From Chloroflexota bacterium (GTDB lineage Bacteria > Chloroflexota > UBA11872), in assembly GCA_022824495.1 (NCBI GenBank), contig JAJDZU010000006.1, forward strand, positions 62,001 to 126,000: a DNA stretch of 64,000 bases, in the 5' to 3' direction. The position numbers and the translations under genes are program-made. Within the stretch, counting starts at the first letter, position 1. Every line of letters begins with the position of its first letter. The notes under the pieces are model-generated. The model searched no databases and had not been told where the DNA came from. It saw only the letters and a program-made list of their open reading frames with translations. Below, one piece after another: positions 13,283 through 54,812 of this stretch.

Positions 13283-14332
13283 CTACACCCAGCCGTGCTG
13301 AATCTGGACCGGCTCGCCCGCGGCTTGCGAATTCCAACTCTCGCCCGAATCCAGCAGGACTTCGCTGCGGGAGAGTTCCGAGGTCTCCGCGGCCAGCAGG
13401 ATCTCCTGGATGTGGCGGCCGTACTCTCCCGGCACCGGGCTCTCGATGTCCTGCTCGATGGCCTCGGCAAAGCGTCCCCACTCCAGCCGCATGTTCTGGG
13501 GCCAGTAGTCGTACTCCACTTCGTCCCAGGAGTTGTTCTTGCCGATCCAGAGGCCCCGGCCCGAGGCGCTGTGCGCGAACTTCAGGCTGCCGTTGGCGCA
13601 GATGACGTGCGTGTCGTGGATCGGCCCGCCGTCGGCGAAGCCCACCGACACCGCCACCCCGGCCAGCCCGTTCTTGTAGCGGATAAAGGCCGTGGCCGAG
13701 TCGTCGCCGGCCTGGTAGTGCGCCCGCGTTCCGATCGATGCCGACACCGAGGAGGCCTGTGAACCCATGAACCAGGTAACCCGGTCCACCACGTGCACGC
13801 CGTTGCTCAGCCACATGCCCCCGCCGTGGTAGCGGCTGCGGTACTGCGGCCGCCGGCTGGCGTGATTCCAGTTCTTGGACATGTAGCTCACGATGGTGAT
13901 CAGCGGCCCCAGTTCGCCTGAATCCAGGATCTCCTTCGCCTTGATGTTCACCGGCAGGAAGTGGTTGGTCAGGCCCACCATCAGTTTCACGCCGTTGGCT
14001 TGGGCGGCCGCGATCATCTCGTCGCACTGCTCCAGCGTCAGCGCCATCGGCTTCTCCACCAGCACGTGCTTGCCGGCGTTCAGCGCATCCACGCTCAGCC
14101 GGTGGTGCAGGTGATGACCCAGCACCACGCCCACGGCGTCGATGTCGGGATCTTCCAGCAGTTCCGTGTGCGACGCGTAGCCCCTGGCGACGTCGTAGGT
14201 GTCCATGTACTCGGCGCGCGTCGACTCGATCAGGTCGGCGCAGGCCACGATCTCCACGTCGTCCAGCTCGGCAATGCCCTGGGCGTGAGAACGGGCGATG
14301 CCGCCCAGGCCGATCATTCCAACTCGCAACAT
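13283..14332 (-). CDS. Gfo/Idh/MocA family oxidoreductase
   Basis: A 349-residue sugar-type oxidoreductase. MLRVGMIGLGGIARSH at the N-terminus is a full GxGxxA/S Rossmann motif, and VLVEKPMAL near residue 95 carries the catalytic lysine. GGGMWLSNGVHVVDR matches the His/Asp substrate-site helix of the family. It is first in a two-gene operon with the aldo/keto reductase (5-base spacing). No promoter stands out, but the upstream 270 bases are non-coding and shared divergently with the coiled-coil gene at 14607. Confidence 0.87.
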   Translation of the reverse strand: MLRVGMIGLGGIARSHAQGIAELDDVEIVACADLIESTRAEYMDTYDVARGYASHTELLEDPDIDAVGVVLGHHLHHRLSVDALNAGKHVLVEKPMALTLEQCDEMIAAAQANGVKLMVGLTNHFLPVNIKAKEILDSGELGPLITIVSYMSKNWNHASRRPQYRSRYHGGGMWLSNGVHVVDRVTWFMGSQASSVSASIGTRAHYQAGDDSATAFIRYKNGLAGVAVSVGFADGGPIHDTHVICANGSLKFAHSASGRGLWIGKNNSWDEVEYDYWPQNMRLEWGRFAEAIEQDIESPVPGEYGRHIQEILLAAETSELSRSEVLLDSGESWNSQAAGEPVQIQHGWV

Positions 14333-14606
14333 CTTGGCGGGTACCTCGGCAAGCTGCCATGCGGACCGTGCCAGCCACGGGCATGGGCGTCAATTCCGAA
14401 TGCTGGCGATATCCCTTAGCGCTCCGGCAACCGGCCCCAAAAGGCGACGGACCCTCCACAACTACGACTATCATCTGAATGCGCGTCAAGCGGCCCAGCC
14501 GTACCAAGGGTGGGACGCGCTTGGTACCGATGCGGTCACGACCCGGAATGCGAGTCCGGCCGCCGAGATTCCGGGTGATCGCCCGGCGCACAAAGGAATC
14601 AGGGAC

Positions 14607-15098
14607 GTGACGGTTGACGCGCACCCAATCACACAGGATGAGTTGCGACTCGAATTGGGCCGGACACAGGACGAATTCCGTGCTGAGGAGAGCCGGACGC
14701 GGGCTGAGTTCCGGGCCGAACTCAGCCGGACTCGCGAGGACTTTCTGGCCGGGCTGACCCAGACACGGGAAGAGATTCGAAGTGTCAGGGATGAGTTCCG
14801 CGCCGAATTGAGCCAAACGCGCGAAGAACTCCGCGCCGAGATGACCCAGACGCGCGAAGAACTCCGCGCCGAGATGATCCAGACGCGGGAAGAACTCCGG
14901 TCCGAGATGAGCCAGACGCGGGATGACTTCCGGGTCGAAATGAACCTGCTACGCACCGAGATTGTGACCCATTACGCCACCAAGGCGGACCTGCACTCGC
15001 TTGAGTCGCGCCTTATCAGGTGGATGATCGGCCTGATGATCGGCTCGGTGGGTACCGCGGTCGCGATTGCCGTAGCCGCCGATCGGCTGTGGAGTTGA
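14607..15098 (+). CDS. DUF1640-like coiled-coil protein with C-terminal membrane anchor
   Basis: A 163-residue protein made almost entirely of 11-residue repeats of the type QTREELRAEM plus one residue, which predict an extended (hendecad) coiled coil. It is followed by THYATKADLHSLESRL and a C-terminal membrane helix (WMIGLMIGSVGTAVAIAV). That ending is typical of bacterial DUF1640/CCDC90-like proteins. GTG 14607 is chosen because AAAGGA lies 9 bases upstream; the frame stays open further upstream but that part is not protein-like. Function unknown, probably a membrane-anchored oligomeric coiled coil. The Asp/Glu/Arg-rich surface is strongly charged. Confidence 0.65.
   Translation: MTVDAHPITQDELRLELGRTQDEFRAEESRTRAEFRAELSRTREDFLAGLTQTREEIRSVRDEFRAELSQTREELRAEMTQTREELRAEMIQTREELRSEMSQTRDDFRVEMNLLRTEIVTHYATKADLHSLESRLIRWMIGLMIGSVGTAVAIAVAADRLWS
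14800..14945 (+). repeat. 33-base tandem repeats encoding hendecads
   Basis: At least four adjacent 33-base units (core GACGCGCGAAGAACTCCG) encode successive 11-residue repeats in the DUF1640-like gene. Two central units are almost identical in DNA. Confidence 0.75.
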
Positions 15099-17768: not shown

Positions 17769-18201
17769 GGCCTCCCAGGGGGACGTCGCGGCCTTCGTCG
17801 AGGTCCAGGCGGTCGAACTGGCGGGTGACGTCGGTGCGGTGGGACTGGCCGATGTCGGCCATGAACTGCCAGAAGCGTTCGCGGGCCGCGTCGTCGTCGG
17901 GCGTTCTGACCATCATCTCGCGGTTGAAGGCCATGATCTCGGTGGCCGACCGCGGCCGCATTCGCGCCTTGACCCAGGCCCAGACCTCCTCATCGCTCTC
18001 GCGCGCGGCCACGGCGTCCACGAAGTCCTGCGGCTCGATCCCCAGGAACTCCAGCAGCATCCCGGAAAAGAACGTGCGCGAAATGTAGTCCCCCAGCTGA
18101 CCGGCAATCTCGGCCCGCACCTTGTCGATCGCCCGCGGCAAAAACACGATCCCATGCATCGACTCATACGGACTCCGCGGTACCCCATTCACAAGATCCA
18201 T
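17761..18201 (-). CDS. DUF5069 domain-containing protein
   Basis: A 146-residue soluble protein. GVPRSPYESMHGIVFLPR and IDKVRAEIAGQLGDYIS match the conserved N-terminal part of DUF5069. The centre has FLGIEPQDFVDAVAA, and the tail is acidic. Function unknown; members are small, cytoplasmic and often stand alone. ATG 18201 has a clear GGAGGGA site upstream (on the minus strand, about 18208-18214); the longer open frame to 18351 is dismissed for that reason. Its stop lies 45 bases before the DUF418 start on the same strand. Confidence 0.78.
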   Translation of the reverse strand: MDLVNGVPRSPYESMHGIVFLPRAIDKVRAEIAGQLGDYISRTFFSGMLLEFLGIEPQDFVDAVAARESDEEVWAWVKARMRPRSATEIMAFNREMMVRTPDDDAARERFWQFMADIGQSHRTDVTRQFDRLDLDEGRDVPLGGRQ

Positions 18202-18739
18202 CGCGTAACTCCCTCCAGCGGCGACCTTTGGATCATGCACCCGGGCAGCACCCAGGGTCGGCGGCCACCTCTCGACAGGGTAACGAGGGATGAGCCCGGA
18301 TGGGCCGGCGCCCACCGAGCCCGGCACGCGCCAAACCGCGCTCAAGGTCACTCAGCCGTGGATCGCTTGCCGCTCGAGGTGTTCGAGACGCTCGCCTGCG
18401 GCGATTGAAGCATCGGCGGCCGTGAACTCGAAACCAGCGACCCCTAGTCCTTCAGATCATTGGCGGCCTCGACGCACTCCTTCAATTCATCCACTCCGGC
18501 GAATGCCAGCAGGAGAGCCTCTAGGAATTCTCATCAGCGATCGCTTCCACGTCGTTGATACGTACGTCGCGTCTCTCCTTTCCGCGTCACAAACAAAGCT
18601 AATGCGGTTGACAATCACTCTTCACCAAGATTTCGAGACCATGGCGCAACATCACTCCCCGCGATAATACCTATCGCATCTGCCAAAGACCCGTTTACAC
18701 ATCACACAGCCGCGTTAATCAATCTACTATACCGAGACT
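18202..18739. other. Gene-poor interval between DUF5069 and the lower-GC island
   Basis: These 538 bases hold no convincing intact gene. GC content falls visibly from left to right, marking the edge of the accessory island. A 125-codon plus-strand frame at 18290-18667 has no family resemblance or ribosome-binding site. On the minus strand a short protein-like fragment at 18444-18530 looks like a decayed gene end. Confidence 0.5.
18444..18530 (-). pseudogene. Possible gene remnant (frameshifted)
   Basis: On the minus strand a short frame reads EFLEALLLAFAGVDELKE... and ends AANDLKD, then TAG. It is preceded by two stops, but the adjacent frame upstream reads DVRINDVEAIADEN, as if one helical protein had been split by a single-base shift near 18528. 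No start codon with a ribosome site is seen. The parent family is not recognised. Confidence 0.25.
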
Positions 18740-19888
18740 TCACCTACTACTAATAAACCGTCCATCACTCACTAATCTCTCCAATGACAAAAACTTTACT
18801 TCGCGCTGTGGTCTTTGCGAAATGTAATCAGGGAAGTCATGTAACACAATCAGCAGCGAGTACACTAACGGCCGCAGTGGTGAAGGTGACAAAGAAAGGA
18901 ACTGCCGACCTTTCTCTTCAGCCTCCCACCAATACCGCGTTTCTTCCAGCGGATTATCACCCAAATGATCCAACAGCCTCTCTACCGAACGACAAAAGTC
19001 CCATGTTTGCTCGACCGTGCTACGCATCACCTTCAAATACCTTGCGCCAATCCTCCGCCGAAGTGGCAATGGGTATCTTCTAAACAGAGCACGTAGATTG
19101 TGACTCCTACTAAAGCTCCTATCTATGTCGTCAAGTCCATACTTCAATAGCAATTCTATGAAATATAGTCCTATGATTCGCTGTCCAATCTGAAACCCCG
19201 CATTTCGCGGGTCAGCCGATTCATGTGGGGATTTCACACTAAAGTAATGAAGAATCCCTCCCAACCAGTGCTTTTCGAGCTTGATGTGCTTGTTCTCTCT
19301 ATTCGAATTGGGACGGCGCTTAGACTCGCTTCGATGTGATCGATCCTCTAGTGACTGCTCGAGAGACCTGAACTTCGTATGGAAGCGCTGCTCGTTGCAA
19401 GCACGCTCTGGATAATCGTGCAGGGCAACAAACAGCGCATAAACTAAACGACGAAGCGATCCGTACCCAAAAATGATAGAAATACCATATCGTCGTTTTC
19501 GCTCCCAGAAGTATCGAGTGTCGGTAAAAGGATCATGGCCCAAATATTCCAGATACGAGCTCACAGAACTCTCAAAGTCCCAGGCTTCGGCCGTCTCTTG
19601 GGTCAATATCTCTGTATACTTGGACTCTGCAGCTAGTCGGTTATTCCTTGGCAAATCTGCGAAGAGTTCACTCAAGGAATGGATTCGTCCATAGCATAGG
19701 TTCGCGTTACGCAATGCGTGCTTTAGTAGCATCTCAATCAGGTACAATCCTATGATGTGCTGTCCAATCTCATATCCGATCCTTATGCTGTCATCTGATT
19801 TTCGAGGATCGTTGAAATTGAAGTAATCCAGTATTCCTTCAAGCCATATAACTTGTGGCATCGTAGTCTCTCTTACCTCGTCTGGCAT
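18740..19888 (-). CDS. Protein with two HEPN-like repeats, partner of the methyltransferase
   Basis: A 382-residue helical protein made of two homologous halves (about 15-180 and 208-372). Each has W-L-(E/G)-GIL-YF, IGQ-IIGLY-IE-LLK, a (S/H)-(H)-(S/N)-L--LF loop, (A/Q)-WDF--SV, a Y/L--LG--P---TRY-WE segment and PLVY-L---LHD-P. The E-LLK helix followed by H-N/S-L--LF resembles HEPN domains, which are often RNases in toxin or defence systems, but a strict Rx4-6H motif is not certain. The gene abuts the methyltransferase stop (TAG then ATG) and has lower GC than its surroundings, so it is probably a laterally acquired partner. An internal ATG at 19861 is an alternative start. Confidence 0.65.
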   Translation of the reverse strand: MPDEVRETTMPQVIWLEGILDYFNFNDPRKSDDSIRIGYEIGQHIIGLYLIEMLLKHALRNANLCYGRIHSLSELFADLPRNNRLAAESKYTEILTQETAEAWDFESSVSSYLEYLGHDPFTDTRYFWERKRRYGISIIFGYGSLRRLVYALFVALHDYPERACNEQRFHTKFRSLEQSLEDRSHRSESKRRPNSNRENKHIKLEKHWLGGILHYFSVKSPHESADPRNAGFQIGQRIIGLYFIELLLKYGLDDIDRSFSRSHNLRALFRRYPLPLRRRIGARYLKVMRSTVEQTWDFCRSVERLLDHLGDNPLEETRYWWEAEEKGRQFLSLSPSPLRPLVYSLLIVLHDFPDYISQRPQREVKFLSLERLVSDGRFISSR

Positions 19889-22792
19889 CTAGAAAACCAA
19901 CTCAGCATTCGACGGTCGCCGTTTCCCACCATGAACTGACGGCTCCGCACACCACTTCGCCGCCAACCGACGGACCGCCCGATAGACACCCTCATCGAAC
20001 CCCAGGAGGTCACAGAGCACGTACCGGTCGAGCAGCGCACGGCTGGGATCCGCGTCAGCCAGGTAGGCGGGTTTCAATTCCTTGTCGCGAAACTCCTCGA
20101 AGACTCTCTCGGCGCTGCTGAGTTGCCCGTCATTCAATTCGCGGAAGTCCAGTACCGGCAGCGATTCGGCGGAGCGAATGGTCATGTTGGCCTTGCTGGA
20201 CTGCTGGCGCGTGGCGTGCCACCACCAGCTCAACAGACCCAGGGTGGAATTGCCCCAAACGGCAAAGGCGTAGTCCAGCCGCTGGTCACTGAAGTTCACG
20301 TTCGGCCAGACCCGGCCGCCAATAGTCTCCCGTTCCGTAAGAGCTACGGCCAGCGCCTGCGACCCAAACGTAAAGTCGAGGTTCAGGTGGGTGCGGCCAG
20401 CCGTAGCCCAGATTTCGGCGGCTTTGGCCTCCATACCTACTCGAACCACGAGTTGGGAGTCCGGCTCACACACCAGCTGTGTTTCCTGGCGCGCGTCGTG
20501 GTTCCAAAGAGCGGGGTACGTGGCCGTAGGGTCCGCCGCAGTCTTGTCGAATGGTCCACGGGGTCGCGGCCCGGTTATGTCCCGATGAACGTACCCAAGC
20601 TCACCCACAACACCCAGCGGTGCCATGTTCAGATCAAGCGGCTCGGGCTGACCCGGCAGCCATAGCTGCGAATGCGCCAACGTATAGGCCGTCTGCGCCA
20701 GCGAATAGTCGGCCAGGCGCACCCCGCCCCAGGCTAGGCCGTTGTGCATCACCGGAGCGGTCAGCACGCCGCCTACCTGTTCGTCGCCGATCGTCAGTCG
20801 TGTTCCCCCGTACGGCCCGTCCTCGAGCGTTCGGACATCCGCGCCGTTGACGAGGGCGCCGGCCAACGCGGCGGCCTGGGCGAATCCCTGCGGTCGACGC
20901 GCCAGCGACGTGAAGTGCACCCGCGCTGCCGGCGGCTCGCTTTCACACCGTTTACGCGCAATCACCAGGCACTCCGCCATGCCGGTGTCCGACGAAAACG
21001 CCATGTCGCGATTGTTGGCCGCAATGCTGAGCACGGACACGTCGGCGTAATCGCGCGCCAGCATGTGCCGGAAGTTCTGCCACGACAGCCCACCCGCCGC
21101 TGACAAGGGCAGCACCAGCGCCAGCACGCCGCCGGGCTTCAGCTTCCCGTGCCCCAGCGCCGCAAACGCCGAGGCGATCCCCGCGTTGCCGTGATACGCC
21201 GTGCCCCGTCCCCTCGCATTCAGCCGCTTACCCATCGCGCTCATGTCGTCCTTCGAGGCATCGAACGCGGCAAACGCAGGATTCACCACACTTGCCCGCG
21301 CCCCTTCGTGATTCGTGGCGCGGGTGAAGGGTGGATTCATAATCGCAAGGTCAAAGCCTTGGTCGGGTACTTCGACAACGAGCTGCGTAGCCGTCTCCTC
21401 GCCAACGCTGCCGGTGCGCTTGGCGGGGTCGCTGGTGTTGAACAGCGTCAGGGTCTGCGAATCCTGCAACAACTCCAGCGAGCCGATCGCCACAGTTCCA
21501 TCGTCCTGCCGCCCATACGCCAGCGTATAGAGACGCGAGTTCTCAAATTGGCCGCCGGGTTGCATACCGGCGAGGGTGGACCCGGTGATGTGAATGGCCG
21601 AGGGCATCACGTCGCAGCCGTACAGCACCTCTTCCATCATCGTGGAATGCAAGGCCGCGGCGTCGCCGCCGGTTCGCTCATGACGGGCCGCAATCTGCTC
21701 GTACACGGCAGACAGCAACGCCCCGGTGCCGCAGGCAAAATCGCCGACCCGCAACTTGCCGATAGCTTCGGCATCGGACCAGTCCACGCCCTCCATCTTG
21801 GCCACTGCCAGCCGCGCCAGCAGCGCCGCCGAGGCGGGCAGCGTGTAGAACGTGGCCAGGTACTTCCGGTCCGCGATCAGCCGCTGAAACACCCGGCCGG
21901 TCAGGTCGTGCGCGTTGTCGATGCCTGTGGACTTCACGTCCTGAGCGGTTACCCGCAACTCCCGTAAGAGCCGGGCCGCGTCGTGTGACGGAAGCAGACC
22001 GATGATGTCCCTGGCAACGGCAAAGATCGGCCAGTAGTTGATCGCCAGGATTTCCTTCCAGGCCGTCAGAACTTCTCGCCTCGGATTCAGCGTGTCCTCA
22101 CCACACACTCCGTCCAGCGACTTGACGGTCGCGTGCACGCCCGCCAGCCGGTCGTGAAAGATCAACGCGTTGGCGATCATGGCACCCGCCATGCGCCAGG
22201 TCTGCCGCACGTTGGTCATGCCCAGTAGGCCGGCAATCTCCAGGGCGATGAAGGGCCGGAGCTCCGCGACCTCCTCGATGACCTTCTCGGCGATGTCGAT
22301 GCCCTCTTCCAGGACCTGCGCCGCCTGATCCACCGCGTGCTGCGGCACCGACACCAGCCGCACCAGATCCGCCAGGTCCTCAACCGACCCGTCAAGCCAC
22401 CCTGACGTCGGAAACCGGTCTGGTTCTTCGCCACCGTTAGTGAACACGCCGTAGGACAAGCGCGCGTCGGCCAGTTCCGACTCCAGGTCCTCGGCGTCCG
22501 GAATCGATGCTGGATACCGCAACGCAATAGCCGCCTCGATTGGACGACCGTCAGCCGTGGTTCGCAAACCCAGCCGCTCGCGAGCCTCGGCTTCCACGTT
22601 GGCCGCCGGCGCGAATTCGGCCTCGATCACCACCGGCGCCCGGCCGCTAGCCGTGATCAGAACATCAGGCCGCAGCCCCGGATGCCCGGCAATCGCCTGC
22701 GTGTTCTCCGTCCGCACCTGGCACGTCGGCAACATTCCCTGCAGCAGGGATCCCAGCGCATTGTTCGCGCTCGGCTCAGTCTGACGGGGCAT
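19889..22792 (-). CDS. Large N6-adenine DNA methyltransferase, restriction/defence type
   Basis: A 967-residue class I methyltransferase. DFACGTGALLSAVY near residue 350 is SAM motif I, and NPPF near 480 is the catalytic N6-adenine motif IV. The N-terminus (RPDVLI..., VVIEAEF near residue 58) resembles a PD-(D/E)xK-like module in which Lys is replaced by Glu. The C-terminal 300 residues look like a target-recognition region (YPALWNHD, QSSKANMTIRSAESLPVLDF). This layout matches type IIG or BREX/Pgl-like single-chain methyltransferases. The start overlaps a short open frame (TGATG), and the stop directly touches the HEPN-like gene, giving an operon. No HsdR/HsdS or phosphatase/ATPase BREX partners are present. 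Confidence 0.82.
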   Translation of the reverse strand: MPRQTEPSANNALGSLLQGMLPTCQVRTENTQAIAGHPGLRPDVLITASGRAPVVIEAEFAPAANVEAEARERLGLRTTADGRPIEAAIALRYPASIPDAEDLESELADARLSYGVFTNGGEEPDRFPTSGWLDGSVEDLADLVRLVSVPQHAVDQAAQVLEEGIDIAEKVIEEVAELRPFIALEIAGLLGMTNVRQTWRMAGAMIANALIFHDRLAGVHATVKSLDGVCGEDTLNPRREVLTAWKEILAINYWPIFAVARDIIGLLPSHDAARLLRELRVTAQDVKSTGIDNAHDLTGRVFQRLIADRKYLATFYTLPASAALLARLAVAKMEGVDWSDAEAIGKLRVGDFACGTGALLSAVYEQIAARHERTGGDAAALHSTMMEEVLYGCDVMPSAIHITGSTLAGMQPGGQFENSRLYTLAYGRQDDGTVAIGSLELLQDSQTLTLFNTSDPAKRTGSVGEETATQLVVEVPDQGFDLAIMNPPFTRATNHEGARASVVNPAFAAFDASKDDMSAMGKRLNARGRGTAYHGNAGIASAFAALGHGKLKPGGVLALVLPLSAAGGLSWQNFRHMLARDYADVSVLSIAANNRDMAFSSDTGMAECLVIARKRCESEPPAARVHFTSLARRPQGFAQAAALAGALVNGADVRTLEDGPYGGTRLTIGDEQVGGVLTAPVMHNGLAWGGVRLADYSLAQTAYTLAHSQLWLPGQPEPLDLNMAPLGVVGELGYVHRDITGPRPRGPFDKTAADPTATYPALWNHDARQETQLVCEPDSQLVVRVGMEAKAAEIWATAGRTHLNLDFTFGSQALAVALTERETIGGRVWPNVNFSDQRLDYAFAVWGNSTLGLLSWWWHATRQQSSKANMTIRSAESLPVLDFRELNDGQLSSAERVFEEFRDKELKPAYLADADPSRALLDRYVLCDLLGFDEGVYRAVRRLAAKWCAEPSVHGGKRRPSNAELVF

Positions 22793-23001
22793 CAGAGGCC
22801 CTTAGCAGCGCCGTGCGGATTCACGTCCATGTCCGGTTTTCGTTCGGTTTGCAGCGAATAATAGCCCAAAACGAGCATCAGGGATTCAACATCCGACCCG
22901 TTTCCGCCAGCGCATCCATCACTCCCAAGCAAATCGCGTGAATCTCTTTCACCGTCATCGGCCAGGCCGACCTGGGCAAAGACCTTGACGCCGAACTTCA
23001 T
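22792..23001 (-). CDS. Possible small gene upstream of the methyltransferase
   Basis: A 69-codon frame (start MKFGVKVFAQVGL) whose stop overlaps the methyltransferase ATG as TGATG, which would allow coupled translation. The protein resembles nothing I know, and its start is only 18 bases from the divergent VapB start, leaving no room for two promoters. It may simply be the methyltransferase leader. Confidence 0.22.
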   Translation of the reverse strand: MKFGVKVFAQVGLADDGERDSRDLLGSDGCAGGNGSDVESLMLVLGYYSLQTERKPDMDVNPHGAAKGL

Positions 23002-23019
23002 TGACGCTGTGATGTCTCC

Positions 23020-23292
23020 ATGCGAATCACTCTCACTATCGACGACGACCTCGCCGATGCTCTTCAGCGGCGGGCGAAGCGGCTTGGTGTTCCGTTCGAT
23101 CAGGTCGTCAACGAGACGCTGCGCCGCGGCCTGGCGGCGCAGGAGGCCGAGGACCGGCCGCGGTGTCGTGTCCGGCCGTTTCGCAGCGGCTTTCGTCCCG
23201 GGATTGACCCGCTGAAGCTCAACCAGCTCAACGACGAGTTGGAAGTCCAGGACTTCCTGGAGAAACACCCCGACTGGCCGTCCCGGACCTGA
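23020..23292 (+). CDS. VapB-type ribbon-helix-helix antitoxin, orphan
   Basis: A 90-residue protein opening with MRITLTIDDDLADALQRRA and VPFDQVVNETLRRGL, the ribbon-helix-helix DNA-binding module of VapB-family antitoxins. The tail (PFRSGFRPGIDPLKLNQL) is the typical toxin-binding part, which ends LEVQDFLEKHPDW. No PIN-domain VapC toxin follows; the next gene is a HIT protein 162 bases on. It is therefore an orphan antitoxin, or a relic of a VapBC module, on the edge of the methyltransferase island. Confidence 0.75.
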   Translation: MRITLTIDDDLADALQRRAKRLGVPFDQVVNETLRRGLAAQEAEDRPRCRVRPFRSGFRPGIDPLKLNQLNDELEVQDFLEKHPDWPSRT

Positions 23293-23454
23293 ACGTGCCC
23301 GCCCGCGCCTGAATGCCCGGCGCGCCCGGAAACACCCCGGCAGGCGCTGGACTTGGCCGAACGGTGGTTCCGCGCGTCCAGCAGGATCAAGGACGACGCA
23401 CCTGTCCCGGTTTCGTCACCGCCTCTCACCGACGCGGGTCCGTACGATTCGGGG

Positions 23455-24039
23455 ATGAGCTATTTCGAGCTGCCGGAGCCTCGGCGGGAGCGGTGTCCGT
23501 TTTGCGACCACGTTGCCGGTCGCGAAACGGAAGGGGGCGTTGGTTGCGCGGTGGTGCTGGAAACTGATTTGACGCTGACGTTTGTGGAGCCAAGGCGTAA
23601 GCACCCGGGGCGGCTGCTGGTTATCAGCAAGCGGCACGCGCCGACGCTGCTTGACCTCACGGACGAAGAGGCGGCGGCGATCATGCGGGACACGCGGCGC
23701 GCGGCGCTGGCGGTGACCAGGGCCTTCAAGCCGGACGGCCTGACCATCTACCAGAACAATGGCGTCGGGGCGGGCCACGAGATTCCGCACGTTCACATGC
23801 ACGTCGTCCCGCGCTATCAGGATGACGGAGGGGTGAATGCCGACAAGGGACCGGTCATGGCTCATGAGAGACCTTTGGGTAGTCCTTCGTTGGGTGCGCG
23901 GAAGACCCTCACCCCAGCCCTCTCCCACGGGGAGAGGGAGGAAGAGCGGCGGCGCGTCGGAGGTGAGGAGCGTTCTGCAGTGATTCCCTACGAGGAGCGG
24001 GCTGAGGTGGCGGCTCGGATCAGGGGCTTTATCAAGTAG
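23455..24039 (+). CDS. HIT family protein carrying an inserted interspersed repeat
   Basis: A 194-residue histidine-triad nucleotide hydrolase/transferase. The triad is HVHMHVV near residues 116-122, preceded by CPFC near residue 14 and GRLLVISKRH. It acts on AMP-linked or dinucleoside substrates in the cytoplasm. The region after VPRYQDDG normally runs straight into the last helix; here about 35 residues are inserted, including LTPALSHGERE, the translation of a widespread inverted-repeat element (23906-23941). The frame is preserved and the C-terminal helix PYEERAEVAARI follows. ATG 23455 has GGGG only nearby. The insertion lies far from the active site and may be tolerated. Confidence 0.82.
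   Translation: MSYFELPEPRRERCPFCDHVAGRETEGGVGCAVVLETDLTLTFVEPRRKHPGRLLVISKRHAPTLLDLTDEEAAAIMRDTRRAALAVTRAFKPDGLTIYQNNGVGAGHEIPHVHMHVVPRYQDDGGVNADKGPVMAHERPLGSPSLGARKTLTPALSHGEREEERRRVGGEERSAVIPYEERAEVAARIRGFIK
23900..23942 (+). repeat. Interspersed inverted-repeat element inside HIT gene
   Basis: GGAAGACCCTCACC followed by CTCTCCCACGGGGAGAGGGA, a 7-8-bp stem with a short loop, reads LTPALSHGERE in the HIT frame, a known translation product of dispersed repeats in high-GC genomes. A related element follows at 25690-25850, sharing GCGCGGAAGA..CCTCA. Confidence 0.75.
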
Positions 24040-24094
24040 GGGCCGCCGGCTGGCACCATGACGCGTGTTGTCCGCTCTCGTGCCAGGCGCTGCC

Positions 24095-25246
24095 ATGAAG
24101 ATTGCCGACATCCAGTTCTATTCGTTCAACCCGGGCCGTCGGAACCTGGAGGTGGTGCGGGTCGAATCGGACAACGGCTATTACGGCTGGGGCGAGGTGG
24201 GCCTGACCTCGCGGAACCTGGCGGTGGGCGGGGCCATTGCGCACTTTCGGGATTTCCTGATCGGCCAGGATCCGCGGCGCATCGGGCGCATCTGGCAGGA
24301 GACGTACCGCAGCCAGTACTTCGAAGGCGGACGGGTGCTGACCTCGGCCATGGCGGCCATCGACATTGCGCTGCACGACCTGGTGGCCAAGAGCCTGGGG
24401 GTGCCCGTCTACCAGTTGCTGGGCGGCAAGCAGCGGGACTTCGTGCCGTGTTTCGTCACCACGAACGCACGCAACCAGGACGACCTGGTCGAGGAGGTGA
24501 AGGGCCTGGTGGCGGACGGCTGGGAGTGCATCCGCACGCTGGTGTGGGGCCTGTGGGAGACCGAGGGGCAGGTCTTTTCGCCGCGCGAGTCGGTGGCCAT
24601 TACCGCCGAGTGGCACACGGCGGTGCGCGAGGCGGTGGGGCCGGGTCCCGTGATCGGGCCGGACTATCACCACCGGCTGAGCGTGGCCGAAGCGGCCTCC
24701 TACTGCCAGCGCATGCCGCCGGGGACCATCGACTTCCTGGAAGAGCCGATCCGCGACGAGACGCCGGCGGCCTACGCCACGCTGCGTTCCATGACCGACG
24801 TGCCCTTCGCGATCGGCGAGGAGTTCTCCAGCAAGTGGCAGTTCGCGCCCTACATCGAGCAGGGCCTGACCAACTTCGCCCGCCTGGACGTTTGCAACGT
24901 CGGCGGCTTTACCGAGGCGATGAAGGTGGCGGGCTGGTGCGAGACGCACTACATCGACCTGATGCCGCATAACCCGCTGGGGCCGGTCTGCACGGCGGCC
25001 AGCGTGCACCTGGGCGCGGCGGTGCCGAACTGGGCCTGGCTGGAGGACCGGACGGTTGACCTGGGCCGGCTGTATTCCGACGAGATCTTCCCCGTCCAAC
25101 CCAAGCTGGATGGCACCTGGTACCCGGTGCCGGACGGCCCGGGCCTGGGCGTGGAGATCGACCTGGACGTGATCAAGGAGATTCCCTCCCGCCAAACCGA
25201 AACCCCGCACACGGTTCGACCGGATGGGTCGGTGACGAACTTTTGA
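24095..25246 (+). CDS. Enolase-superfamily sugar-acid dehydratase-like protein, paralog A
   Basis: A 383-residue MR/MLE-type enzyme. Metal ligands: GPDYHHRLS near residue 190 (Asp, with His as acid/base), FLEEPIRD near 217 (Glu) and AIGEEFSS near 243 (Glu); MPHNPLGPV near 290 gives the catalytic His. It probably dehydrates a sugar acid. Paralog B (26191) is very similar along most of the protein, but the loop near residues 141-160 differs (VWGLWETEGQV versus a different sequence), probably in the substrate site. ATG 24095 is the family start. Upstream 45 bases are also duplicated in B. Confidence 0.87.
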   Translation: MKIADIQFYSFNPGRRNLEVVRVESDNGYYGWGEVGLTSRNLAVGGAIAHFRDFLIGQDPRRIGRIWQETYRSQYFEGGRVLTSAMAAIDIALHDLVAKSLGVPVYQLLGGKQRDFVPCFVTTNARNQDDLVEEVKGLVADGWECIRTLVWGLWETEGQVFSPRESVAITAEWHTAVREAVGPGPVIGPDYHHRLSVAEAASYCQRMPPGTIDFLEEPIRDETPAAYATLRSMTDVPFAIGEEFSSKWQFAPYIEQGLTNFARLDVCNVGGFTEAMKVAGWCETHYIDLMPHNPLGPVCTAASVHLGAAVPNWAWLEDRTVDLGRLYSDEIFPVQPKLDGTWYPVPDGPGLGVEIDLDVIKEIPSRQTETPHTVRPDGSVTNF

Positions 25247-26146: not shown

Positions 26147-26180
26147 TGGCACCATGAGGCGTGCCGTTCGCTCCCGAGGC
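26147..26180 (+). promoter_or_regulatory. Upstream element shared by the two enolase-superfamily paralogs
   Basis: GGCTGGCACCATGAGGCGTG at 26147 matches GGCTGGCACCATGACGCGTG at 24049 almost exactly, with the same distance (about 44 bases) to the ATG. The gene at 5510 has a loosely similar GGTGCCAATATGACGCG. It could be a promoter or an operator duplicated with the gene. Confidence 0.4.
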
Positions 26181-26190
26181 AGGCGCCGTT

Positions 26191-27345
26191 ATGAAGATCG
26201 CCGACATCCAGTTTCATGCCTTCAACCCGGGCTTTCGCAACGTGCAGACCGTGCGGATCGAGTCCGACAACGGTTACTACGGCTGGGGCGAGGCCGGCCT
26301 GAGCACCCGCGACCTGGCGGTGGGCGGAGCGGTGTCGCATTTCCGCGACTTCCTGATCGGCCAGGACCCGCGCCAGATCGGGCGCATCTGGCAGGAGGTC
26401 TATCGCAGCCAGTACTTCGAGGGCGGGCGCGTGCTGACCTCGGCGATGTCGGCCATAGACATCGCCCTGCACGACCTGGTGGCCAAGAGCCTGGGCGTGC
26501 CGGTCTACCAGCTGTTGGGCGGCAAGCAGCGGGACTTCGTGCCCTGCTTCGTGACCACGCGGTCCAACGACCTGGACGAGCTGATCGCGGAGGTGAAGGG
26601 GCTGGTGGCGGATGGCTGGGAGTGCATCCGGACCTCCATGTACGGTCCGGGGATCAGCGACGGCAGCAACCGCTTTGAGCCGCGCGAGTCGGTGGCCGTG
26701 ACCGCCGAGTGGCACACGGCGCTGCGCGAGGCCGTGGGGCCAGGACCGGTGCTGGGCCCCGACTACCACCACCGCCTGAGCGTGGCCGAGGCGGCCTCGT
26801 ACTGCCAGCGCATGCCGCCGGGCACTATCGATTTCCTGGAAGAGCCGATTCGCGACGAGAGCCCGAACGCCTACGCCACGCTGCGCACGATGACCGACGT
26901 GCCCTTCGCGATCGGCGAGGAGTTTTCGAGCAAGTGGCAGTTCGCGCCGTATATCGAGCAGGGCCTGACGAACTTTGCGCGGGTGGACATCTGCAATGTG
27001 GGCGGGTTCACGGAGGCCATGAAGGTGGCGGGCTGGTGCGAGGTCCATTACATCGACCTGATGCCGCACAACCCGCTGGGCCCGGTCTGCACGGCGGCCA
27101 GCGTGCACATGGGCGCGGCGGTACCGAACTGGGCCTGGCTGGAGGACCGCGGACCGGACCTCGGACGGCTCTACTCGGACGAGCTATTCCCGGTCCAGCA
27201 CAAGCTGGACGGCGTCTGGTACCCCGTGCCCGACACGCCGGGTCTTGGCGTGGAGATTGACCTGGATATTGTGAAGGAACTCCCGGTCAGCCACTGGGAG
27301 GCCCCGCACCTGACGCGGCCGGACGGGTCGGTGACGAACTGGTAG
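26191..27345 (+). CDS. Enolase-superfamily sugar-acid dehydratase-like protein, paralog B
   Basis: A 384-residue near-duplicate of paralog A, with the same metal ligands (PDYHHRLS, LEEPIRD, GEEFSS) and MPHNPLGPV. The loop near residues 141-160 differs (YGPGISDGSNRFE), suggesting a different substrate acid. The upstream region with GGCTGGCACCATGA is shared with paralog A, so the two arose by tandem duplication including regulatory DNA, now separated by DUF2283 and the repeat region. The ATG at 26191 is the family start. It is followed after 45 bases by the ABC exporter pair. Confidence 0.88.
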   Translation: MKIADIQFHAFNPGFRNVQTVRIESDNGYYGWGEAGLSTRDLAVGGAVSHFRDFLIGQDPRQIGRIWQEVYRSQYFEGGRVLTSAMSAIDIALHDLVAKSLGVPVYQLLGGKQRDFVPCFVTTRSNDLDELIAEVKGLVADGWECIRTSMYGPGISDGSNRFEPRESVAVTAEWHTALREAVGPGPVLGPDYHHRLSVAEAASYCQRMPPGTIDFLEEPIRDESPNAYATLRTMTDVPFAIGEEFSSKWQFAPYIEQGLTNFARVDICNVGGFTEAMKVAGWCEVHYIDLMPHNPLGPVCTAASVHMGAAVPNWAWLEDRGPDLGRLYSDELFPVQHKLDGVWYPVPDTPGLGVEIDLDIVKELPVSHWEAPHLTRPDGSVTNW

Positions 27346-50843: not shown

Positions 50844-51767
50844 ATGAGCGCGAGCGCCTGGGCTTATTCGAACGGTGAGATCGTCCCGCTGGAAGAGGCC
50901 CGCTACTGGCCGAACGACCTGGCGATCATCTACGGCGAGATCGTCTACGAGGCCACGCGCACGTTCGGCGGGCAGCCCTTCAAGCTGAAGGAGCACATCG
51001 ACCGGCTCTATCGGTCACTGGACTACTGCCGGCTGGATCCGGGCCTGACAGCCGAGGAGCTGACCGAGGTCACGCTGGAGGTCGTGGAGCGCAACCAGCC
51101 GGACCTGCCGGACGGCAGCGACACCTGGATCTTCCACAACATCACCCGCGGCTCGCACCCGCAGTTCCCGGGCGTGGGACGCGGCGACGCCGGGCCGTCG
51201 GTGCTGGTGTGGACGCACGAGCTGGGCTTTAAGTACTGGTACCGCGCCTACGAGGAAGGCGCGCACTGCGTGACGCCCTCGATCCGCCAGGTCAACATCT
51301 CCACGCAGGACCCGCGGATGAAGACGCGCAGCCGCATGTTCCTGGCGCTGGCGGAACAGGAAGTCAACGCCCTGGCCCCCGGCGCCTTCACGCTGCTGCT
51401 TGATACCGAGGGCCGCATTGCCGAGGCCACCGGTGCGAACTTCATGGTGGTCTCCGACGGCGCCATCCTGACCCCGCGCACCGGCACGGGGCTGGCCGGC
51501 GTTAGCCTCTCCACCGTCCGCGACCTGAGCCTGGACCTTGGCGTGGAGGTCCGCGAAGCCGACCTGACCCTCTACGACGTCTTCACCGCCGACGAGGCGT
51601 TCCTCAGCAGCACCCCCTACTGCCTGCTACCCGTCACCCGCGTCAACGGCACCCAGGTCGGCACCGGCCACCCCGGCGACCTCTTCGCACGCCTGATTGA
51701 CGCGTGGAGCGAAACGGTGGGCGTGAACATCATTGAGCAGGCGCGGAGGATTGGCGAGACGAACTGA
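50844..51767 (+). CDS. Class IV pyridoxal-phosphate aminotransferase (branched-chain type)
   Basis: A 307-residue fold-type IV enzyme. The PLP lysine lies in DPRMKTRSR near residue 155, and IAEATGANF near 196 holds the conserved Glu/Asn; GLAGVSLSTV follows. It resembles branched-chain aminotransferase or D-amino acid transaminase/aminodeoxychorismate lyase relatives, which cannot be separated by sight. ATG 50844 has AGGGA upstream. It is separate from the upstream acetyltransferase by 92 bases with parS and promoter. Confidence 0.83.
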   Translation: MSASAWAYSNGEIVPLEEARYWPNDLAIIYGEIVYEATRTFGGQPFKLKEHIDRLYRSLDYCRLDPGLTAEELTEVTLEVVERNQPDLPDGSDTWIFHNITRGSHPQFPGVGRGDAGPSVLVWTHELGFKYWYRAYEEGAHCVTPSIRQVNISTQDPRMKTRSRMFLALAEQEVNALAPGAFTLLLDTEGRIAEATGANFMVVSDGAILTPRTGTGLAGVSLSTVRDLSLDLGVEVREADLTLYDVFTADEAFLSSTPYCLLPVTRVNGTQVGTGHPGDLFARLIDAWSETVGVNIIEQARRIGETN

Positions 51768-52017
51768 AGACACCTGCAAAAAGCACTTATACAGCCGGGG
51801 TTCAAAGGTTGTGCACAGTCCGAAACGAGAAAAACGCCGATGCCAAACTTGCATGCGATAGACGCCGACTCGATCCACTAAGTCTTTTAACACTTCAACA
51901 CTGCTAGCCTGACTCTTCACGATCGCTGCTCGACGCAGCGAAGAACAAAAGGTACTATTGTTGGATCCGCGTAGCCACCGCCTAACTAGGACATTATCGC
52001 TGGACTTGGAGCCTTGA
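51768..52017. other. Transition to AT-richer accessory DNA
   Basis: These 250 bases drop in GC content compared with the surrounding genes. I see no gene, tRNA or strong hairpin here. Confidence 0.4.
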
Positions 52018-52281
52018 ATGAGCATGACTTATAGTCGCAAGACTATCAAAGATCTGACAGATTTGAGGGAAACCATAAGCAGTATAAATGAGACTTTAAA
52101 CAAGGATCAGCTTGAGCCGGACGATATAAAATCTATCGGGAGATATATAAACTCCGCTCTCTCCAGCATATATAGTAATTTGGCCCTTCTCGATCGCCGG
52201 TCGGCTGAAGCGTATGCTAGATCCAAAGGCATGTCACTTGAATACGAGGACGATGACATCTCATCAACGAGCCACGGTTGA
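52018..52281 (+). CDS. Small AT-rich hypothetical helical protein
   Basis: An 87-residue protein with markedly lower GC and different codon use than its neighbours (TATAGTCGC, ATAAAT, AGTATA), hinting at lateral acquisition. It is predicted helical (RKTIKDLTDLRETISSINETL) with an acidic end (EYEDDDISS). GGAG lies 6 bases before ATG 52018. I do not recognise it. It could be a phage-, plasmid- or defence-related small protein. Confidence 0.5.
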   Translation: MSMTYSRKTIKDLTDLRETISSINETLNKDQLEPDDIKSIGRYINSALSSIYSNLALLDRRSAEAYARSKGMSLEYEDDDISSTSHG

Positions 52282-52647
52282 GACTGATGTGGTCATGGAT
52301 GCACTTACGGAACATACTGGATATTATTGCGAATGACAAATGTTTGCACTTCGGAGTTCTATTAGGATTATTAGTCGAGATCACATACTATCATAGATGA
52401 GCTGTAATCTAGCTTTTAGATACGGTTCTCAGAAGGGGACGCCTGGCTTGCCAAGCGTCATTTAGCAACGATGCTTTGACTTGTCACGCTGGGCTGCAAC
52501 TCGCTGTCGGATGTCAGCGTGCGTCAGAAAGGCGCTAGGTTTCAGTTAACCTCGTCAGCGCCCGCCGAACCAGGACTACTGCGGGGATAACGCGACGGCC
52601 AAAGCCTGCTATTGGCCGCTCTATTGGCGAAGGTGCCTTACTCAGGC
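52282..52647. other. AT-richer intergenic stretch
   Basis: These 366 bases hold no open frame with family resemblance. Base composition remains lower in GC than the core. A weak inverted repeat is seen near 52435-52465 (GACGCCTGGCTTGCCAAGCGTC), which could terminate the small gene upstream. Otherwise nothing is supported. Confidence 0.45.
52441..52461 (+). terminator. Hairpin 160 bases after the small gene
   Basis: GCCTGGCTTGCCAAGCG region: GACGC and GCGTC flank GGCTTG/CAAGC pairs, giving an imperfect 10-bp hairpin. No T tract. Weakly supported. Confidence 0.3.
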
Positions 52648-53382
52648 TCACTCAAAGTACCACTCGCAGACTAGGCTGTTTCCATCCTGGTCTGTTTCGG
52701 ATGGGACGTGGCCTGCTAGAAAACCCTGACCAACTGAGAATCGGTACGGAACGCCAGCTTGGTGAGCCGCCTCGCAGGAAGGGTATCGCTGGCTTGGTGG
52801 AACGTAGCTTCTGACACTAGTAGTGTATTTTGTCTGGTCTCCGATGCGCTCAAAATAGATGGCCCATTTTGATTCTGGATGCGCTTCAACGACCAAGTTG
52901 GTTGTACCGAGAGCGGTAGTTATGTCGACCTCTCCGGTGGTAATGTTCCTGGTCCGGTCGTGTTGTAGGTGCTCTACAGCATGGCCATAGGGCACGACGT
53001 AGAACAGTACAGCTACCCTGGACAGGGTCGGTCCGTCGTGTGAGACGACTGTTCGGTACTTACCAGTTGGCAGATCGAGCGACTGCGTGGAGTCACCTTG
53101 GCCCATTTTCATCGCTGACGGGTTGTCGAGAGCCCAGGAGAAAGCGCCTCGAACATCCTGCAGATGATCTCGTCGGCAGGTGACTTCGGCGCTATACTGG
53201 TCATTGAAGGCTCGCTGGTAGATACCGACGGCACCGGAGCCTAGCGAAGAGGCTTCGACCATGTCGTTCATCTCAAGGCAGGTTTCAGGCCAGCCTCCCT
53301 TGAAATATCCGAGTGCAGATCCAGCCATCAAGCCCGCAGTGATAACGGCGGCTGCGCAAGCTGCTGATAGTCGTTTATTCAC
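52648..53382 (-). CDS. Secreted protein with Excalibur-like calcium-binding tail
   Basis: A 244-residue protein with a Sec signal peptide (MNKRLSAACAAAVITAGLMAGSALG). The main domain is not recognised. The C-terminus has YPSCEAAHQAGVPYRFS followed by DQDGNSLVCEW, which matches the Excalibur motif (DxDxDGxxCE), often found at the end of surface-attached secreted proteins. GTG 53382 is the start and overlaps the upstream stop as GTGA, with GGAG before it. It is therefore the third gene of a nuclease operon. Confidence 0.65.
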   Translation of the reverse strand: MNKRLSAACAAAVITAGLMAGSALGYFKGGWPETCLEMNDMVEASSLGSGAVGIYQRAFNDQYSAEVTCRRDHLQDVRGAFSWALDNPSAMKMGQGDSTQSLDLPTGKYRTVVSHDGPTLSRVAVLFYVVPYGHAVEHLQHDRTRNITTGEVDITTALGTTNLVVEAHPESKWAIYFERIGDQTKYTTSVRSYVPPSQRYPSCEAAHQAGVPYRFSVGQGFLAGHVPSETDQDGNSLVCEWYFE

Positions 53383-53564
53383 GGCAACTCCTTTGGAATA
53401 CGATGCTCCAGAATTCGGATATCCACTTCGAATTCCGTAGAGAAATCTGGAAGGGTTTCCATGCTCATATGAGGCGATGTATTAGAAGCATGGACGCCGC
53501 AGCACTCGCTGTCAGAGAAGGCGGCCGAGAGTAGCAGGCCGAGCTCTTCATTGAGTTCATCCAT
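53379..53564 (-). CDS. Small 61-residue linker gene
   Basis: A 61-residue acidic protein (MDELNEELGLLLSAAFSD, then SECCGVHAS). It overlaps the nuclease stop by 8 bases and the Excalibur start by 4. Both overlaps suggest real coupled translation. It is not recognised and may be an antitoxin-, immunity- or adaptor-like product. Confidence 0.5.
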   Translation of the reverse strand: MDELNEELGLLLSAAFSDSECCGVHASNTSPHMSMETLPDFSTEFEVDIRILEHRIPKELP

Positions 53565-54585
53565 TCTTCCAAGCTTCGTACACCGCCGTTGTCAGCGCGA
53601 ACAGGCGGTCCTTGTGTTGCTCCCACTCTTCGGCGGTGAACAGGAACTTAAGCTCGGTTCCGGGGTCTTCCAACGGGTCTCGATCTCTCGGGTATGTCTC
53701 ATATCGGATTTCCTGTATGGGCTGCCGAAACTCGTCCAGGCACAAGGCCTTGGTGCTCGGGAAGAAGACTATAGTCACGCCTCCCTTCCATGGATCAGTG
53801 CGTGCATATCTATTTCTCTGCAGTCTGATACTCAATCCAATGGATGTCGGGCTTTTGCTGAGCCCGGGCCAGTTCGCCTCGAACATCTCCTCGACGGCGC
53901 TGAAGGTCTTGGACATGCCGGAATTCTCTATTTTTTCCTTTAGCTTTGCTCTCTTCTCCTCCATGTTCGGGTATCGCCTTCGCCGGCGCGGAGCGGGATC
54001 TTCGTCGGCTTGTACTTCGACCTGACGGGCAAGCAGCGTCTTGCCGTCGTAGGCAAAGCCGTGGAACGTGAGCAGCGAAATGTCCATGCTGGTGTTGGCG
54101 GCGAGGAATCTCACCATCCGCTCCGTCCTTTCGTCGGCTCCCAGGCCGATCAGGAACAGGCGCAGCGGCCTAAGGGAGTCGAGACCCCGGCCGTCGGTGT
54201 TTTCGCCGTACCACTCCTCGAAGTCTTCGATGGTCTCGATGCCACCCATACCTGAGTTGGTGGCGATGTGTTCGGCCAATGCCACGTCGGTCCTGGCGTC
54301 CAGGTCGGAGGCGTAGTCGATGATCTGCGCAACGGCGTCCCTCGACAGCGTCCCGCGCTTCAACTCGAACACGACCAGCCGACCGTCCTCATCCACCCCG
54401 AGCAGATCGAGCGGCCCGCCGTCGGTGGGCGTCTGCCGGCCGACGAGCCTCAATCCCGGAATCAGCAGGTCGGGGTTCCTGACGAGCGTCTCCTCCAGCA
54501 AGGATTCCGTGTCGGTCTGGTCCTTCGACGCCAGGGGCGTGACCTTCGAGTCGCCATCGAGCGCCCAGATCTTTACTTCATCCAT
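53557..54585 (-). CDS. PD-(D/E)xK nuclease-like protein (NucS-related)
   Basis: A 342-residue protein. LVGRQTPTDGGPLDLLGVD (Asp60) and RLVVFELKRG (Glu74, Lys76) followed by AQIIDYASDL are the catalytic core of NucS-like/DUF91 restriction-fold nucleases. The second half has a basic linker RRRRRY, a helix EKRAKLKEK and a beta-rich end. It is related to the gene at 32344. It is the first gene of a three-gene overlapping cluster. Its role may be DNA repair or defence. Confidence 0.75.
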   Translation of the reverse strand: MDEVKIWALDGDSKVTPLASKDQTDTESLLEETLVRNPDLLIPGLRLVGRQTPTDGGPLDLLGVDEDGRLVVFELKRGTLSRDAVAQIIDYASDLDARTDVALAEHIATNSGMGGIETIEDFEEWYGENTDGRGLDSLRPLRLFLIGLGADERTERMVRFLAANTSMDISLLTFHGFAYDGKTLLARQVEVQADEDPAPRRRRRYPNMEEKRAKLKEKIENSGMSKTFSAVEEMFEANWPGLSKSPTSIGLSIRLQRNRYARTDPWKGGVTIVFFPSTKALCLDEFRQPIQEIRYETYPRDRDPLEDPGTELKFLFTAEEWEQHKDRLFALTTAVYEAWKNG

Positions 54586-54812
54586 TGGAGACCTTTGCGT
54601 AATTCGATTCGGATCAGGAGGTCCGGCGCCTGGATTCCCGATTTCGAGGGAGTGACGGAGGTTAACGCAACGGTCTCACCAGGGAGCACCAGCCCCGCCG
54701 CCCGATCGATTCGGGAAGACTTCTGGAAAGAACCGCAGTGGCCGTCGAGTCGATTCACGGCGCGGAGTCTTTCAAAAGCGGGCCGCGCACGTTCCTTGAT
54801 GCGACTTGAGAA

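Follow-up and report, generated by a model that had tools for sequence, protein, structure and literature searches.

MmeI is a single-chain restriction–modification (RM) enzyme of type IIL/IIG. Toxin genes beside RM genes have also been described: PMC3506569 and PMC3710099 report PrrC with PrrI and genes for HEPN, SIR2 and restriction endonuclease (REase) proteins in RM operons, and PMC3506569 reports the replacement of one toxin by another at RM and CRISPR-Cas loci. Defence genes can lie inside type I RM systems, as described for DarTG2 in PMC12255303, where Payne et al. 2024 are cited on embedded defences, and PMC9122126 describes small hotspots of P2/P4-like elements with exchangeable defence genes. 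Here we analyzed 64,000 nucleotides of a Chloroflexota bacterium (contig JAJDZU010000006.1, positions 62,001 to 126,000; designated as the window) from a genome of 3.37 Mb in 25 contigs. On its minus strand, the gene for a 967-residue N6-adenine methyltransferase (19889–22792) is followed by that for a 382-residue orphan protein (18740–19888), and the TAG of the former directly abuts the ATG of the latter without spacing. An earlier note, made from the sequence alone, had placed two abutting open reading frames (ORFs) here and described the second as lower in GC; both ORFs are present, with GC contents of 0.65 and 0.46, respectively. The 382-residue ORF has a second in-frame ATG 27 nt downstream of the first, which may be its true start.

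We propose, with a probability of roughly 0.6, that the two genes form one allele of a modular defence unit, in which a restriction-type enzyme is combined with a second-line effector that can be exchanged. The anchor would be a single chain whose N-terminal PD-(D/E)xK-type domain with E-x-E is joined through a helical linker to an N6-adenine methyltransferase, followed by a variable part for target recognition, and the slot right behind its stop codon would hold one, sometimes two, low-GC genes of abortive-infection type, which are swapped while the enzyme and the flanks stay. As a first line, the enzyme would methylate host DNA and, if its E-x-E domain is active, cut unmarked phage DNA; as a second line, the independently encoded occupant, here the duplicated helical protein, would halt the infected cell.

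RM-linked toxins are similar in that suicide-type genes adjoin an immune enzyme and are replaced by others, but the present anchor is a single gene with its slot on the 3′ side, close relatives show swapped alleles as well as an empty one, and the breakpoints are near the stop codon. The P2/P4-like hotspots likewise consist of small loci (~1–5 kb) with a fast turnover of reverse transcriptase (RT), SIR2, TIR, HEPN and REase genes beside conserved genes; their conserved neighbours are phage or satellite genes, whereas here the anchor itself probably acts in defence. At the window site no integrase was noticed, although none was searched for. Unlike BREX and MADS, no multi-gene set was noticed beside the window enzyme, other partner genes not having been searched for with models. 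A literature search found no description of this enzyme family or slot, and the combination of a one-gene restriction-type anchor with a slot on one side only and with alleles swapped at the stop codon appears to be new with respect to the literature searched.

The swaps were found by comparing orthologous loci. At five of them the enzyme and the flank were kept while the occupants differed, and at a sixth one genome had no occupant; similarity at the swap loci ended no more than ~35 nt from the enzyme stop codon. In the genus of the window, the site is bordered by a DUF5069 gene on one side and a VapB-like ORF on the other and was readable in 11 of 13 genomes (G023 and G273, in which the flank matches were merely 70–71%, were left out). 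Three of the 11 carried the enzyme, followed by the 382-residue protein gene in the window, an RT-Mrr gene in G308 and a SIR2 gene in G069; two carried other genes, and six were empty. Similarity among the enzyme-bearing alleles stopped 20–33 nt ahead of the stop codon of the window enzyme. The earlier note had taken the pair for a two-gene defence operon. This reading is partly supported. The data agree with a modification enzyme that adjoins a probable defence effector in a unit absent from relatives: the site is empty in 6/11 genomes, and well-matched defence genes occupy the same place in other family members. A constant pairing of the two genes is not supported, as relatives with this enzyme at this locus have an RT or a SIR2-like gene as its neighbour, both on the opposite strand.

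The other loci gave similar pictures. L036 and L037 were 88.6% identical up to 6 nt beyond the stop codon, followed by AbiTii or TIR genes, a repeat-rich stretch and a flank of 92.3% identity. L038, L039, L041 and L042 shared the enzyme, then had four occupant sets, two of which share a SIR2-like gene (37% identical), and then one AAA ATPase gene; between L041 and L042 an identity of 91.7% ended exactly at the stop codon. L064 and L068 were 92.9% identical to 13 nt beyond the stop codon and then unrelated, the far flank lying outside the L064 sequence. L047 and L049 were 91.0% identical to the stop codon, from which 33 bp in one and ~1.2 kb with a gene for a 297-residue protein in the other led to a flank of 88.8% identity. 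L174 (enzyme stop at L174:8936) and L178 had flanks of 86–93% identity and lost similarity 3–6 nt before the stop codon, then carrying RT-TIR versus DUF5131 plus a partner. Where flanks were compared at the first four of these loci, the enzyme diverged about as much as they did, so that the occupant seems to have been exchanged next to a resident enzyme and resident flanks; in L174/L178 the enzyme (78–82%) was somewhat more divergent than its flanks. In the window genus, the flanks were 86–95% identical and the enzyme ~75%, with most of the difference due to its second half, where identity is down to 58–65%. As is characteristic of defence hotspots, the position and its conserved neighbours stay the same while the defence genes turn over. 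The AAA ATPase gene found after the variable slot in a single genus (L042:12981–14093, with equivalents in L038, L039 and L041) has a host-like GC content and, in L042, matched PDC-M38A at 4.9e-80.

The genes behind the enzyme in relatives are of many kinds. The occupants, picked by eye among the downstream genes, were searched against family models. Loci whose enzyme is at least 55% identical to that of the window form subfamily A, and more distant relatives form subfamily B. The matches in subfamily A were an RT (4.8e-18) with Mrr_cat (4.4e-7), also hit by PADLOC as RT clade XI (5.1e-129), in L032; SIR2 (PADLOC, 1.4e-6) in L033; AbiTii (3.1e-38) in L036; TIR_2 (8.3e-14) in L037; SIR2_2 (9.4e-11) in L038; ApeA_NTD1 (1.8e-33), followed by the SIR2-like gene, in L039; AAA_15/OLD (2.3e-23) in L041; CAP12 TIR (3.3e-27) in L042; AAA_15 (1.2e-19) in L064; a TIR effector (PADLOC, 3.3e-10) in L068; PF05168 HEPN (3.2e-17) in L077, with a 79% identical relative in L082; SocA/Panacea (1.8e-17) in L079, on the second ORF after the stop codon, the first having 101 residues; and ThsB TIR (5.5e-20) in L083. 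L174 had RT-TIR (PADLOC, 4.4e-123), and L178 had DUF5131 with a relative of PDC-M41A. Occupants in subfamily B were SDH_protease (1.6e-16, L100), PDDEXK_4 (1.4e-15, L109), FRG (4.4e-23, L122) and KAP_NTPase (5.8e-33, L142). No family was matched in these searches by the occupants of L035 (350 residues), L067 and L049, the 569-residue gene product of L038 or the 1467-residue one of L087, and the L044 occupant had a sub-threshold match only (0.012). Blastp comparison of 31 occupant proteins, grouped by hand, gave 26 groups. Membrane-like proteins with a GC content of 0.49 and 32–36% mutual identity are encoded right after subfamily B enzymes at L043:10597–11877, L044:10609–11676 and L048:3481–4584. 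A search rule for defence genes follows from the slot: look at the gene after this methyltransferase. Occupants without a family above cut-off, to which this could apply, are those of the window (382 residues), L035, L067, L049, L038 (569 residues) and L087 and the membrane-like one of L044.

The low GC content of the occupant side was examined at 95 loci (38 of subfamily A, 57 of B), after removal of six that duplicated loci of the G genomes (L063, L065, L066, L106, L113 and L114). GC was measurable downstream in 35 A and 49 B loci and upstream in 33 A and 48 B loci, and a flank was called low when its first kilobase was at least 0.08 below the GC of the enzyme gene. In subfamily A, 15/35 downstream flanks were low versus 0/33 upstream (Fisher p 1e-5), and paired tests gave p values of 9e-4 against the upstream flank (n = 30) and 2e-6 against the far flank (n = 33); other 1-kb flank windows of 37 subfamily A loci were equally low in 29 of 589 cases. 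At 12 of the 15 low-GC loci (L032, L033, L036, L037, L038, L039, L041, L042, L064, L068, L079 and L083), a defence or toxin–antitoxin family was matched (E < 1e-5); the other three were the window, with a weak match, and L035 and L067, with none. The occupants of L077, L082 and L087, also in subfamily A, had host-like or slightly lower GC contents.

These data bear on the possibility that independent defence genes simply cluster side by side at insertion-tolerant sites. Such clustering would account for the two genomes whose window site has other genes and no enzyme: G101 (L166:2671–6380) encodes a 783-residue HATPase protein (1.1e-6, no PADLOC match at 1e-5) and a 474-residue protein, by eye a metallophosphatase, whereas G085 (L167:2479–5016) encodes an 845-residue helicase that matched PDC-S28 at 4.2e-258. 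It would also suit the RT relatives found elsewhere without the enzyme and the asymmetry in subfamily B, which is not significant. Clustering alone, however, predicts neighbours on both sides, at odds with the one-sided GC signal of subfamily A, and at six loci the breakpoints fall in the vicinity of the stop codon; we regard it as unlikely.

No curated model exists for the family of the methyltransferase, which has at least 315 confirmed relatives in the species-genome collection. The enzyme matched Pfam Eco57I at 8.7e-6 with 26.4 bits, slightly over the cut-off of 25.3, and the motifs DFACGTG and NPPF given in the earlier note are present. Among the 99 of 103 loci kept for conservation counts (proteins of >850 residues), D351, C354–G357 and N486–P488, which correspond to the N6-adenine methyltransferase motifs DxxCGTG and NPPF/Y, were conserved in 99/99 proteins. 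The N-terminal domain (residues 1–150; 22343–22792, minus strand) is of nuclease type by its motif and predicted element order. Its D-x13-E-x-E was found in 98/99 proteins, D43 and E57 being present in 99/99 and E59 in 98/99 (one has K, giving E-x-K), and the predicted order is helix, three strands, helix, strand, with a predicted local distance difference test score (pLDDT) of 78–90 for the block. This restriction-nuclease-like order, together with the motif, suggests that the methyltransferase may be a one-chain RM enzyme; the view that the locus has no nuclease is accordingly not supported, although searches with the sequence of this domain gave no convincing match. A similar layout is that of the type IIL/IIG enzyme DrdV, in which one chain has an extra N-terminal domain, a helical part, an N6-adenine methyltransferase and a C-terminal part: the enzyme model aligned to DrdV (7lo5) along residues 1–923, as a whole-chain model and not by the N-terminus alone. 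The fold matches of the model were CamA (the best), M.BseCI, LlaGI, DrdV and PglX, and those in a viral fold library were mainly generic methyltransferases.

Two named families were tried and rejected. For BREX PglX, NF033455 gave 10.8 bits versus a curated 900, and the window protein had no NCBIfam match at E 0.001; this also speaks against MADS MAD2, which one of 21 family members matched at 9.4e-5. NF033452 was matched by 3/21 members, at best with 2.2e-6. Separately, tandem methyltransferase copies were seen at L071:8001–13979 (65% and 60% identical to the window protein) and L088:8001–14016 (61% and 31%). L077:7980–11617 and L082:7983–11617 encode 1076-residue enzymes, C-terminally ~100 residues longer than that of the window, whose genes overlap the gene for a HEPN protein of 135–136 residues by 4 nt.

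Nucleotide identity of the window enzyme gene to L032 and L033 was 70–90%, falling to 58–65% in a variable region of presumed target recognition (residues ~483–886; 20135–21346, minus strand) and returning to 77–78% in the last twelfth. That last twelfth was 77–91% identical across nine pairs tested, and the conserved 3′ end (19892–20134, minus strand) is a possible recombination arm. From this identity profile we infer that occupants could be exchanged by homologous recombination between the conserved enzyme 3′ end and the flank beyond the slot. Judging from the same alignments, the variable second half, the presumed recognition part, may also be exchanged. CamA acts as a solitary methyltransferase in house-keeping or epigenetic functions. 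Were the window enzyme such a protein, the slot would merely be a safe insertion site; this seems distinctly improbable, since near-invariant D/E/E residues in an extra N-terminal domain, a variable second half and relatives that lack the entire unit are more in keeping with a defence enzyme, even with CamA as the best fold match.

The question of whether enzyme and occupant depend on each other was approached through the layout of the loci. Zero or short co-directional spacing was found in the window, L036, L037, L042 and L077, and 5/18 subfamily A occupants (L032, L033, L035, L038 and L079) were oriented against the enzyme gene. In a tree of the conserved part of the enzyme with 34 tips (34 of the 38 subfamily A loci), 16 occupant types required 16 changes; the types were assigned by hand, the SIR2 genes of L033 and L038 counting as two, and L040 and L091 were scored as having none although they lack downstream sequence. 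Among eight RT relatives in 350 genomes, six had no enzyme within 1.5 kb, and the two with it were L181, the query itself, and L184. Relatives of the L038 SIR2 gene were found in G033 and G213 only, both enzyme carriers, an outcome that decides nothing. Because occupants can point the opposite way and most RT relatives lack the enzyme nearby, the occupant need not depend on it.

The enzyme, or its intact activity, might instead act as a guard that keeps the occupant inactive until phage inhibition of the enzyme frees it, as PrrC is freed when PrrI is blocked (PMC3506569 and PMC3710099); the enzyme would then serve as a common sensor for different effectors. The 3′ position of the occupants, the breakpoints near the stop codon and the tight spacing at five co-directional loci would suit this idea; opposed to it are the five occupants that face against the enzyme gene, the RT relatives without an enzyme and the fact that one enzyme would need to restrain about sixteen occupant types, and we consider it quite unlikely. 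A related and still more doubtful idea is that the enzyme is a universal socket, which would sense phage infection or its own inhibition and, by its activity or by way of the conserved C-terminus, control any effector plugged in; effectors could then be exchanged without loss of the trigger. Inspection by eye of the sequence behind the stop codon at 25 loci showed no conserved terminal motif, although no formal search for motifs or repeats was made.

The 382-residue occupant consists of two homologous halves, as the earlier note had said, with 63 identical residues among 168 aligned (z = 62 against 500 shuffles); the first repeat lies at 19343–19846 and the second at 18764–19267, both on the minus strand. 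The E-LLK and H-x-L-x-x-LF patterns are likewise common to both halves. The HEPN assignment built on them fared less well. Residues 50–95 matched PF05168 (HEPN) at E = 0.0083 and 16.7 bits, not reaching the Pfam cut-off of 22; single halves had no Pfam match at E 0.5; a two-row repeat profile against the PDB gave a lone chain at E 0.78, regarded as noise; and comparison with two-sequence profiles of the HEPN occupants of L077 and L082 gave no match. A single-sequence structure model was all-helical, but with a pLDDT of 39.7. An R-x4-6-H motif common to the halves was not found by eye in their alignment, R-x5-H occurring in the second half only; this lowers the HEPN claim without excluding it, because R or H is missing from some HEPN families, according to PMC3710099. 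We therefore rejected HEPN as a proven identity, retaining it as possible, and describe the protein as an orphan helical protein with a weakly suggested HEPN-like helix pair. Protein and repeat-profile searches of 400 genomes of the phylum found only the protein itself; no homologs were found in 50 other enzyme-carrying genomes, in a search without a positive control, or in plasmids, phages and viral contigs.

Several points weigh against a modular unit of restriction enzyme and effector. By sequence, the N-terminal domain of the window enzyme had no match in Pfam, and its matches in the PDB (designed armadillo repeats and other unrelated chains, E ≥ 0.012) were taken as noise. Unlike in type IIL/IIG enzymes, the putative nuclease domain has E-x-E instead of the usual E-x-K, and PADLOC IIG models matched the enzyme only weakly; cleavage is putative. 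The low-GC signal was absent in 20/35 subfamily A loci, and subfamily B had 10/49 low flanks downstream versus 4/48 upstream, with a non-significant paired test. Upstream neighbours were judged by GC only, family models being applied downstream. The loci are not independent, several being alleles of one site, and the material is nearly all metagenome bins. One of the two enzyme-linked RTs is the query itself, and the alleles of L038, L039, L041 and L042 are partly related. The effector role of the window occupant rests on its position, the protein having no confident family. Even so, we favour the modular unit at the probability given above, and its natural pairs, in which close relatives have the same enzyme and a swapped effector, would allow direct tests of the coupling between restriction and cell suicide.

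The island at the window site has edge zones at 18317–18503 on the left, below which the sequence is common to relatives, and at 22949–23002 on the right. The shared left flank ended at 18317 (L032), 18503 (L033), 18319–18499 (L163, L166, L167 and L168) and 18201–18215 (L164, L165, L169 and L170). The right flank resumed within the right-edge zone in L163, L166, L167 and L168 and farther out, at 23440–24045, in L164, L165, L169 and L170. In the island-free genomes (G189, G229, G181, G125, G165 and G280), 79–536 bp separated the shared flanks, and in G181, G125 and G165 the flank past the VapB-like ORF was missing too. This ORF, read by eye as a 90-residue antitoxin (23020–23292, plus strand), is at the right island edge with no toxin partner noticed adjacent; related DNA is retained in L163 and L168, both without the island. 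Farther right are tandem similar genes, by eye of the enolase superfamily (24065–25246 and 26161–27345, plus strand), with matching DNA beside the site in relatives.

Elsewhere in the window, a second GC dip (51000–54600; 0.52–0.59) contains the gene for a 342-residue protein, by eye a DUF91/NucS-like nuclease (53557–54585, minus strand). A coiled-coil protein with a repeated short motif (14298–15098, plus strand) had a sub-threshold CCDC90-like match at 3.6e-5, and L036 and L037 have ORFs on the far side of the slot that resemble it by eye.

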